NCBI GenBank assembly: GCA_020054865.1
Contig: JAIHAR010000001.1
Coordinates: 1 to 64,000, forward strand
Direction of reading: 5' to 3'
Length of the DNA: 64,000 bases
Origin: Deferribacteraceae bacterium
GTDB lineage: Bacteria > Chrysiogenota > Deferribacteres > Deferribacterales > Deferrivibrionaceae
Within the stretch, counting starts at the first letter, position 1. Each line of letters starts with the position of its first letter. The notes beneath the pieces were generated by a model. It saw nothing but the letters and a program-made list of their open reading frames with translations. It did no database searches and was not told the origin of the DNA. Shown here in pieces: positions 12,199 through 37,915 of the stretch. Position numbers and translations under genes: made by a program.

Positions 12199-12274
12199 TG
12201 GCAGGGGCGGCAGGACTCGAACCTACGAATGGCGGAACCAAAATCCGCTGCCTTACCAACTTGGCTACGCCCCT
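12199..12274 (-). tRNA. tRNA-Gln (anticodon TTG)
   Basis: The minus strand folds as a full cloverleaf. The acceptor stem is AGGGGCG (12274-12268) with CGCCCCT (12209-12203). The anticodon stem GCGGA/TCCGC encloses loop TTTTGGT, giving anticodon TTG, and the T arm has loop TTCGAGT. The discriminator G and an encoded CCA end at 12199. It is the first gene of the proBA transcription unit, with a near-consensus promoter just upstream. Confidence 0.95.
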
Positions 12275-24125: not shown

Positions 24126-24154
24126 TTGACACAATGAAATTATCTATTTAATAT
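24126..24154 (+). promoter_or_regulatory. Promoter of the pyr operon
   Basis: TTGACA (24126-24131) and TAATAT (24149-24154) are spaced by 17 bases. The predicted start near 24160-24162 leaves a leader of about 90 bases. Confidence 0.82.
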
Positions 24155-24169
24155 TGCCGAGGGTTGAAG

Positions 24170-24250
24170 ATGAAAAAAAACTGTGAAAATAAAAATATGA
24201 GCCTTCCAACGAACTGTTGGGAGGCTTTTTTTTTAAATTCAAGGAGGTAA
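24170..24250 (+). CDS. Putative 26-residue pyr leader peptide
   Basis: ATG 24170 follows GAGGG (24159-24163) at a six-base distance and opens a 26-codon frame. The frame reads through the whole terminator hairpin and its U-run (Phe-Phe-Leu codons) and stops with TAA at 24248-24250, one base before the pyrR ATG. The arrangement recalls the E. coli pyrBI leader, where ribosome progress decides termination. If the transcript starts at about 24160, the SD lies at the very 5' end. No homologue is known to me. Confidence 0.5.
   Translation: MKKNCENKNMSLPTNCWEAFFLNSRR
24200..24234 (+). terminator. Leader terminator (attenuator) before pyrR
   Basis: An 11-base stem (24200-24210 with 24216-24226, one G-U pair, loop GAACT) runs into nine T's. 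It lies between the promoter and pyrR, so it must be read through for expression. GTTGAAG at 24163-24169 can pair with CTTCCAAC at 24203-24210, with one bulged base, as an alternative antiterminator. Confidence 0.85.
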
Positions 24251-24251
24251 A

Positions 24252-24788
24252 ATGAGAGAAAAAGAAATTTTAAATGCTCACGAAATTGATGGTATTGTAA
24301 CAAGATTGTCATTTCAGATTATAGAAAAATGTCAAGATTTGTCCAATATGAAATTGGTTGGCATTAAAAGAAGAGGTGCAACTCTTGCTGACAGAATTGC
24401 GAAAAAAATAAACGAGTTTAAAAAAACAGAAGTAGATGTCGGTTATCTGGATATTACACTTTACAGAGATGACCTCTCTGAAATATCCGATTTTCCTCAA
24501 ATACTTGGCACAGAAATAAATTTTGATGTAAAAAATAAAAACATTATTCTTGTAGATGATGTTATTTATACAGGCAGGACAGTAAGAGCCGCAATGGATG
24601 CAATCACCGACCTTGGAAGACCTAAAAAAATTATTTTTACTGCACTTATCGACAGAGGTCACAGAGAGCTTCCAATTCAACCAGACTTTACCGGGAAATA
24701 TGTGCCTACAAGCCTTGATGAAAAAATAAATGTATATCTTAAAGAGTTAGACTTAAAAGATTCAGTATCAATAGAAAAAATGAAGTAG
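24252..24788 (+). CDS. pyrR: Bifunctional pyr operon regulator / uracil phosphoribosyltransferase PyrR
   Basis: This 178-residue phosphoribosyltransferase-fold protein has PRPP motif VDDVIYTGRT at 101-110 and the PyrR block VDVGYLDITLYRDDL near 61-74. PyrR binds pyr mRNA when UMP is high and promotes termination; many members also have weak UPRTase activity. AAGGAGG precedes the ATG. Its own leader holds a terminator, but I find no sequence like the Bacillus PyrR-binding loop, so the RNA target may differ. Confidence 0.94.
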   Translation: MREKEILNAHEIDGIVTRLSFQIIEKCQDLSNMKLVGIKRRGATLADRIAKKINEFKKTEVDVGYLDITLYRDDLSEISDFPQILGTEINFDVKNKNIILVDDVIYTGRTVRAAMDAITDLGRPKKIIFTALIDRGHRELPIQPDFTGKYVPTSLDEKINVYLKELDLKDSVSIEKMK

Positions 24789-24797
24789 GAGCAAATT

Positions 24798-25718
24798 ATG
24801 GCATATGTCAGAAAAGATTTGGTGGGATTGAAAGATTTATCCAAAGATGAAATACTGTTTATTCTTGACCAGGCTGAAAAGTTTAAAGAGATTAATCAAC
24901 GTGATGTAAAAAAAGTCCCTACATTGAAAGGAAAAACAATTGTCAACCTATTTTTTGAACCTTCAACAAGGACACGAACTTCATTTGAAATTGCAGGTAA
25001 AAGGCTTTCGGCTGACACCATCAACTTTACATCATCTTCAAGCAGCACTACTAAAGGTGAAACCCTTATAGATACTGTAAAAAATATCGAATCTATGAAC
25101 TCTGATATTTTTGTGGTAAGACACGCCTTTTCCGGGTCAGTAAAATTTATCGCAGAAAATACGAAAGCCGCTGTTGTAAATGCAGGGGATGGTACAAATG
25201 AACACCCCACCCAGGCTTTACTTGACCTTCTTACAATCAAGGAGCATAAGAAAAAACTTGAAGGGCTTAATGTTGCGATAATTGGAGATATAACACATAG
25301 CCGTGTGGCAAGGTCAAATATATGGGCAATGAAAAAAATTGGGATAAACATAAAACTTTTTGGGCCAAAAACGATGTTACCAAAAGAAACTGCTCCATTT
25401 GACAGCTATATTGCAAAAAATCTGGAAGACGCCGTGGAAGATTGTGATGTTATAATGATGCTGAGAATACAAAAGGAGAGAATGTCGAGTGTACTCTTGC
25501 CATCGGATAGGGAATATGCAAAGTTTTTTGGGCTGAATAAAAATAAATTAAAAAAAGCCAAAAAAGATGCCATTATTATGCACCCTGGACCAATAAACAG
25601 AGGTGTAGAACTTAGCAGTGAACTGGCCGATTGTACTCAGTCTGTGATTTTAGACCAGGTTGAAAATGGTGTTGCCGCAAGAATGGCTGTCTTATACATA
25701 TTATCAAACAATATTTAA
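24798..25718 (+). CDS. pyrB: Aspartate carbamoyltransferase catalytic subunit PyrB
   Basis: This 306-residue enzyme condenses carbamoyl phosphate and aspartate in pyrimidine synthesis. STRTRTSFE at 56-64 binds carbamoyl phosphate; HPTQALLDL near 136 and MHPGPINRG near 260 are diagnostic. It sits nine bases after pyrR. No pyrI regulatory gene is present here, so control is probably at the operon leader. Confidence 0.96.
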   Translation: MAYVRKDLVGLKDLSKDEILFILDQAEKFKEINQRDVKKVPTLKGKTIVNLFFEPSTRTRTSFEIAGKRLSADTINFTSSSSSTTKGETLIDTVKNIESMNSDIFVVRHAFSGSVKFIAENTKAAVVNAGDGTNEHPTQALLDLLTIKEHKKKLEGLNVAIIGDITHSRVARSNIWAMKKIGINIKLFGPKTMLPKETAPFDSYIAKNLEDAVEDCDVIMMLRIQKERMSSVLLPSDREYAKFFGLNKNKLKKAKKDAIIMHPGPINRGVELSSELADCTQSVILDQVENGVAARMAVLYILSNNI

Positions 25719-25729
25719 GGAGGGTATGA

Positions 25730-26998
25730 ATGAGCTTGTTACTTAAAAATCTTAAAATCGTAAATCATGATAAAATACTTGAAAATACAAACATTTTAAT
25801 AGAAAAATCCCATATAAAAGCAGTAACCGGAGAATCGCCAGAAGCAAAAGAGATTATTGATCTTAGTGGATTTTACGCTGTACCAGGCCTCATTGATATG
25901 CACGTTCATTTCAGAGACCCCGGGCTTGAATATAAGGAGGATATTTTTTCAGGAAGCAAGGCTGCCGTTGCTGGTGGTGTTACAACCTGCCTGCCAATGG
26001 CAAATACAAAGCCTGTAAATGATAACTCTGCCATTACGAAGTACATGATAGACAAATCTAAACAATGTGGTTTAATCGACCTTTATCCTGTAGGTGCTAT
26101 TACCAAAGGGATGAAAGGTGAAGAGCTGACAGAGATGGGGGATATGTTGGAGGCAGGAGCCATTGCATTCTCTGATGATGGGCTGCCTGTCATGAACAGC
26201 GAGGTGATGAGAAGAGCTCTGGAGTATATCAAAACATTTGATAGCTTTATTATAAGCCACTCTGAAGACAAACACCTTGCAGGAAAAGGTGTTATCCATG
26301 ACGGTAAAGTAGCTACCATAACAGGTCTTAAAGGGATTCCTGCTGAAGCTGAAGAAATAATGATAATCAGAGATATTTTACTTGCAAAATTAACCAAAAG
26401 CCGTATCCACATTGCCCATGTAAGCACCAGAGGTTCACTCAAGCTTATAAAATGGGCAAAAGAAGAAGGAATAAATGTCACCTGTGAAGCTGCTCCACAT
26501 CATTTTACATTTGATGAAAACTCACTGCTTGAATACAACACAAATTATAAAATGAACCCGCCATTAAGAGAGCCAGAAGATGTCAAAGCAATTATTGATG
26601 GTCTCAAAAGCGGACTTATCGATACAATCGCTACAGACCATGCTCCCCACCACATTGATGAAAAGTTTGTGGAGTTTGATTTAGCAGCTTTTGGTATTAC
26701 AGGTCTTCAAACACTTATCCCTCTTACATTAAAACTTGTAAAAGAAAATAAACTGACATGGCAGGATTTTGTAAGGCTTACCTCCTATACCCCTTCAAAA
26801 ATTTTAAACCTTTCAGACAGGGGTGAAATTAAAGAAGGTAAACTTGCCGATATTACAATTATAGACCCTGTTTATACTTACATATTTGATGAAAAAACAA
26901 ATAAATCAAAATCTGTTAACAATCCTCTTTTTGGAAAAGAGCTTACAGGAATCGCAAAACTCACAATAAAGAATGGTAAAATAGTCCACAAAATATAA
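25730..26998 (+). CDS. pyrC: Dihydroorotase PyrC (type I)
   Basis: This 422-residue amidohydrolase closes carbamoyl aspartate to dihydroorotate. The metal motif DMHVHFRDPG lies at 56-65, and TCEAAPHHF near 253 and IATDHAPHH near 303 complete the site. It is the class usually paired with PyrB. AGGAGGG precedes the start, and a terminator overlaps the end of the gene. Confidence 0.96.
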   Translation: MSLLLKNLKIVNHDKILENTNILIEKSHIKAVTGESPEAKEIIDLSGFYAVPGLIDMHVHFRDPGLEYKEDIFSGSKAAVAGGVTTCLPMANTKPVNDNSAITKYMIDKSKQCGLIDLYPVGAITKGMKGEELTEMGDMLEAGAIAFSDDGLPVMNSEVMRRALEYIKTFDSFIISHSEDKHLAGKGVIHDGKVATITGLKGIPAEAEEIMIIRDILLAKLTKSRIHIAHVSTRGSLKLIKWAKEEGINVTCEAAPHHFTFDENSLLEYNTNYKMNPPLREPEDVKAIIDGLKSGLIDTIATDHAPHHIDEKFVEFDLAAFGITGLQTLIPLTLKLVKENKLTWQDFVRLTSYTPSKILNLSDRGEIKEGKLADITIIDPVYTYIFDEKTNKSKSVNNPLFGKELTGIAKLTIKNGKIVHKI

Positions 26999-37463: not shown

Positions 37464-37491
37464 AAAAAGGCAGCCATAGCTGCCTTTTTTT
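37462..37491. terminator. Bidirectional terminator between fccB and rnpB
   Basis: GGCAGC (37469-37474), loop CATA and GCTGCC (37479-37484) are flanked by A7 and T7, so both strands end in a U-run. It serves fccAB on the plus strand and RNase P RNA on the minus strand. Confidence 0.9.
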
Positions 37492-37908
<417 letters not shown>

Positions 37909-37915
37909 AATGACT

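Follow-up and report, generated by a model that had tools for sequence, protein, structure and literature searches.

In the pyrBI and rph-pyrE systems of Escherichia coli, the ribosome on a translated ORF suppresses the terminator and no regulatory protein is involved. The pyrR leader of Thermus ZO5, reportedly described by Van de Casteele in 1997, precedes a pyrR-first operon and combines a promoter with a leader ORF overlapping an intrinsic terminator; there the ribosome, not an antiterminator, is said to prevent termination, and control was ascribed to an action of PyrR on the leader. We examined a window of 64,000 nucleotides from a member of the order Deferribacterales in which an intrinsic terminator stands before a PyrR-family gene and a pyr operon. 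The Bacillus pyr attenuator (RF00515) also has this arrangement, but the window leader has neither its binding loop nor a competing antiterminator. Closer is the likeness to Thermus, as leaders from the window and its order contain a leader ORF with a Shine–Dalgarno sequence (SD) that overlaps or abuts the terminator. The best reading of this attenuator is a Thermus-type, ribosome-mediated device stripped of its PyrR site. The features of the locus, together with two ordinary RNA genes found elsewhere in the window, are as follows.

24126–24154, plus strand: sigma-70-type promoter, TTGACA-17-TAATAT (TTGACA at 24126–24131, TAATAT at 24149–24154)
24159–24163, plus strand: GAGGG, the SD for the leader ORF, no more than a few nucleotides from the predicted 5' end of the transcript
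24170–24250, plus strand: leader ORF of 26 codons, MKKNCENKNMSLPTNCWEAFFLNSRR then stop (ATG 24170–24172, TAA 24248–24250)
24173–24180, plus strand: A8 homopolymer spanning leader codons 2–4
24200–24234, plus strand: intrinsic terminator, stem-loop 24200–24226 with T9 at 24226–24234
24242–24247, plus strand: AGGAGG, SD of pyrR, within the leader ORF
24252–24788, plus strand: pyrR, PRTase family, catalytic motifs kept and several residues invariant in the hairpin-bearing lineages changed
24798–25718, plus strand: pyrB, aspartate carbamoyltransferase
25730–26998, plus strand: pyrC, dihydroorotase
12202–12274, minus strand: one tRNA, ordinary
37485–37911, minus strand: RNase P RNA, class A, ordinary

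The leader is compact. An initial annotation had placed the terminator within 40 bases of the promoter, and this distance was borne out at 45 nt between the end of the −10 box and the hairpin. The overlapping 26-codon ORF with its SD was likewise present as described, crossing the terminator and ending 1 nt 5' of the pyrR ATG at 24252. Transcription is predicted to start at about 24160. Pairing of GAGGG with the anti-SD has an energy of −6.4 kcal/mol, a value reached by 1.8% of shuffles, and the terminator hairpin one of −17.5 kcal/mol. The strong folding score of the whole leader (z = −3.8 versus shuffles) is due to the terminator, as the stretch 5' of the hairpin is nearly unstructured.

A model proposed in the initial annotation has GUUGAAG/CUUCCAAC pairing form an antiterminator that switches under combined control by PyrR and translation. 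The two segments, GTTGAAG at 24163–24169 and CTTCCAAC at 24203–24210, do lie where they were placed and can form 7 bp with one bulged C, but an antiterminator role did not withstand comparison. Its energy is only −2.7 kcal/mol, compared with −17.5 for the terminator hairpin, and the pairing is missing from both congeneric leaders, L002 and L003 (GGGTAAAAAATG), in which the terminator is conserved. Across 24 leaders, the best duplex between the leader head and a terminator arm is no stronger than in the average shuffle (mean rank 0.54), and conserved self-structure upstream of the hairpin was found in none of the leaders tested. We reject the pairing on the grounds that the annotation itself had laid down for refutation, and consider this model very improbable. 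Matches to Rfam leaders (L10, Phe, PyrR and similar) were also rejected: all are below the gathering score and, where an alignment was printed, the match is mostly due to the shared terminator.

The conservation of the attenuator was assessed by searching for PyrR in 46 genomes of the order and reading 41 pyrR leaders; a contig search with a single protein matched only one distant metagenome-assembled genome. The promoter–ORF–terminator unit lies directly 5' of pyrR in 24 leaders, and about 500 nt upstream in a 25th (L013 of genome G024), giving nine genera in total. It was not found 5' of pyrR in loci of families f4 and f5 or of genera g11 and g14 (f7). All 25 attenuators have a TTGACA promoter (TTGACT in L020), a start codon 6–26 nt past the −10 box (almost always 10–18 nt) and a leader stop at −10 to +51 nt relative to the start of the hairpin (−10 to +21 in 23 of them). 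Terminator stem positions 3–7 vary across these leaders with pairing kept, some changes occurring on both sides. At L013 the ORF/terminator geometry is intact despite the separation from pyrR; two near-identical repeat copies (GAAGCCGGAAGTGCGAGAGGGCAAGGTCT...) are situated between attenuator and pyrR, up to about 480 nt upstream of the gene. In genome G008 (L020/L073) the leader ORF is apparently leaderless, with its ATG 6 nt past the −10 box, and crosses the terminator.

Short ORFs are common in AT-rich leaders, and 42% of shuffles of the window leader give one. A constitutive partial terminator that sets the level of the operon, with the mini-ORF incidental in A/T-rich DNA, is one alternative. 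Against this, a mini-ORF was found in 24 of 24 tested leaders when dinucleotide shuffles of the promoter-to-hairpin stretch gave an expectation of 4.5, or 0.27 for ORFs whose SD is as good. When each of eight genera is represented by its least favourable leader, the chance product is 4e-6 without regard to the SD, for trials that share ancestry and are not independent. With the near-constant position of the start codon and SD quality far above that of shuffles, this makes an incidental ORF distinctly unlikely. With relatives taken into account, the arrangement of promoter, terminator and mini-ORF greatly exceeds chance, and the mini-ORF-into-terminator architecture is conserved. Conservation is in kind only: leader peptides of different families have no sequence in common and ORF length is not maintained, with 26 (the window), 14 and 7 codons in the same genus.

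What holds of the 26-codon leader is thus the run of a mini-ORF into the terminator (25 of 25 attenuators in the order), whereas its length is specific to the window, as is the gap of one base before pyrR. The length itself is uncertain. Removal of one A from the A8 tract would yield a 9-codon ORF, MKKTVKIKI then stop, that ends at the hairpin base (24200), which is the geometry typical of the family. The 26-codon frame may accordingly be an assembly indel or reflect slippage in A8, the working leader having nine codons. This would move the end of the stop to +1, within the family range of −10 to +21, when the stop as read is an outlier at +51, and the assembly is fragmented (72 contigs, 87.8% complete). 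However, the L020 frame is also long (+42) and several leaders with PyrR hairpins outside the order cross the terminator too. We rate a 9-codon leader as a somewhat unlikely but appreciable prospect, and one compatible with ribosome-mediated attenuation.

The pyrR leaders of two other phyla (those of genomes G055 and G057) provide a contrast. They have a hairpin, CUUUAA-stem-CCNGNGAG-stem-AAGG, which presumably corresponds to the published PyrR site. The inner stem is paired in 96% of cells, compared with 37–60% when slid, and covaries (45 double-changed cells versus 10.9 in shuffles). As in the window, many leader ORFs of these phyla run into or through the terminator before pyrR; they start 5–11 nt past an AAGG(G) SD. 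At many of these loci the SD forms the 3' side of the PyrR hairpin, an arrangement like that of Thermus, and this hairpin is absent from the window leader. Outside the order, a covariance model of the hairpin matched at 51 of the 69 pyrR loci, a count that includes the source sequences of the model. Within the order it was detected in 0 of 41 leaders, the window's included, a few weak matches with E > 3 lying elsewhere; this absence and the changes in PyrR described below set the order apart from the Thermus-type arrangement. A search across the 46 whole genomes of the order gave nothing convincing (one weak match, E 0.057). The same search recovered the hairpin in 7 of 10 control genomes and, as it scores 150 candidates per genome, weak elements may escape. 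The statement in the initial annotation that no Bacillus-like PyrR loop is visible was confirmed both by this model and by RF00515, which scores 24.6 bits on the window leader against a gathering score of 54. As a separate observation, the −10 regions of L002 and L003 (CCCTTTAATATCTAAGAGGG and CTTTAATATTTGAAAGG) put the −10 box at the expected site of the CUUUAA...AAGG of the PyrR element, possibly as a remnant and possibly by chance.

The annotation had further suggested that PyrR control and translation-coupled attenuation are merged at this locus. Such a merger describes the other phyla well, since their PyrR hairpin carries the leader SD; L091, L092, L093 and L107, which combine the hairpin with a similar 31-codon leader (e.g. 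MTAFAVSKCRVSSAGFRLRGIFFAPNSPVTA) that crosses the terminator and overlaps the pyrR start, are of the kind imagined. For the window, the layout for translational coupling is retained and the PyrR half probably is not, given the missing hairpin and the loss of invariant residues from the protein. PyrR control in the order has no visible basis and, judged from sequence, the PyrR component is probably absent.

The window PyrR has as its best PDB match 1ufr, a 'pyr mRNA-binding attenuation protein' (E 7.5e-52). We compared 25 PyrRs of the order at 55 positions (Thermus numbering) that are near-invariant in the PyrRs of hairpin-bearing loci. The majority are retained, with all catalytic motifs (e.g. 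DDVxxTGRT, DRGHRE), and so are R19, H138, R139 and K150. Lost from every one of the 25 are H22, E23, T41, Q129, N151 and the basic residue (R/K) at 144, and N28 and G30 are each present in one and R15 in eight. Outside the order, H22 occurs at 51 of 51 loci with the hairpin and 10 of 18 without, in a comparison uncontrolled for relatedness. We take H22 and some of the other lost positions to be candidate RNA contacts in Bacillus subtilis PyrR. The PyrR of the order resembles an enzyme-only descendant that may have lost RNA binding. As the order is a single clade, hairpin loss and residue changes represent few independent events.

Alternatively, a reduced form of Thermus-type control may persist, in which a remodelled PyrR-UMP binds the short 5' leader near the AGGG SD and keeps the leader from being translated, leading to termination. 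Blocking of the SD may be the ancestral mode, as the PyrR hairpin of the other phyla carries the leader SD. Moreover, at each of the 25 loci pyrR is still the first gene to follow the attenuator, the four residues named above are retained, and a separate upp gene in 10 of 11 genomes checked means that UPRTase activity alone does not account for the need for PyrR (G008 is the sole genome among them without a strong separate upp match). This alternative is weakened by the universal loss of H22, T41, Q129, R/K144 and N151, and by a leader with neither hairpin nor conserved structure and a 5' UTR too short for a hairpin. PyrR could in principle act on a leader as short and unstructured as this one, but nothing here supports such an action, and we judge it improbable. 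A wider pyr regulon was also considered and rejected: carA (genomes G000 and G002) has no terminator just upstream, and upp is directly 3' of another coding region in readable loci.

We therefore favour, with reasonable though not high confidence, a ribosome-mediated transcription attenuator of pyrR-pyrB-pyrC on which PyrR is likely inactive and to which the pyrimidine signal likely comes through the speed or pausing of RNA polymerase. Transcription would begin a few bases 5' of the leader SD, and a ribosome would load and translate the mini-ORF before RNA polymerase has moved far from the terminator. On reaching the stop beside or inside the hairpin (in the window, on crossing the hairpin), the ribosome would block hairpin formation and the operon would be transcribed; failure to load or translate would lead to termination. 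Since a ribosome at the stop would cover or abut the 5' arm of the terminator, translation should favour read-through, and an antiterminator structure would be unnecessary. With its binding hairpin gone, PyrR would most likely have no action on the leader.

As at pyrBI and pyrE of E. coli, the pyrimidine signal would most likely act through RNA polymerase, by way of its speed or pausing with respect to the ribosome. The likeness extends to a leader ORF that would bring the ribosome to the terminator and to a stop near the hairpin, as in pyrE, but the window leader is far shorter and its operon contains pyrR. U-runs of 4–6 shortly upstream of the leader stop in g10 and g16 (two genera of one family) are compatible with UTP-sensitive pausing and would be expected for it. 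Such a U-rich tract is absent from the genus of the window, where the longest run before the hairpin is 1–2 U, so that the genus shows no sign of UTP pausing. At only about 75 nt, the transcript as far as the terminator end leaves little time for ribosome loading without a pause, which counts against the mechanism that we favour. Two other sources of a signal were rejected: reiterative initiation at a U-tract, as most leaders have no U-run at the predicted start, and amino-acid-specific attenuation, as the peptides have no common codon runs.

Extended beyond the window, our tentative suggestion, held at somewhat less than even confidence, is that most genera of the order control pyr expression by leader-peptide translation alone, having retained an ancestral PyrR–ribosome switch minus its hairpin while PyrR drifted to a non-RNA-binding enzyme. 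The finding would add a compact (~75 nt) ribosome-coupled attenuator beyond the proteobacterial models, and it cautions against deducing PyrR control from a pyrR gene that stands before a terminator. It also provides a residue-level prediction of the PyrR positions that read RNA. Finally, a regulatory system has apparently been caught here in the act of switching sensors, in which the terminator and leader ORF stay while the RNA site and specific residues of PyrR go.
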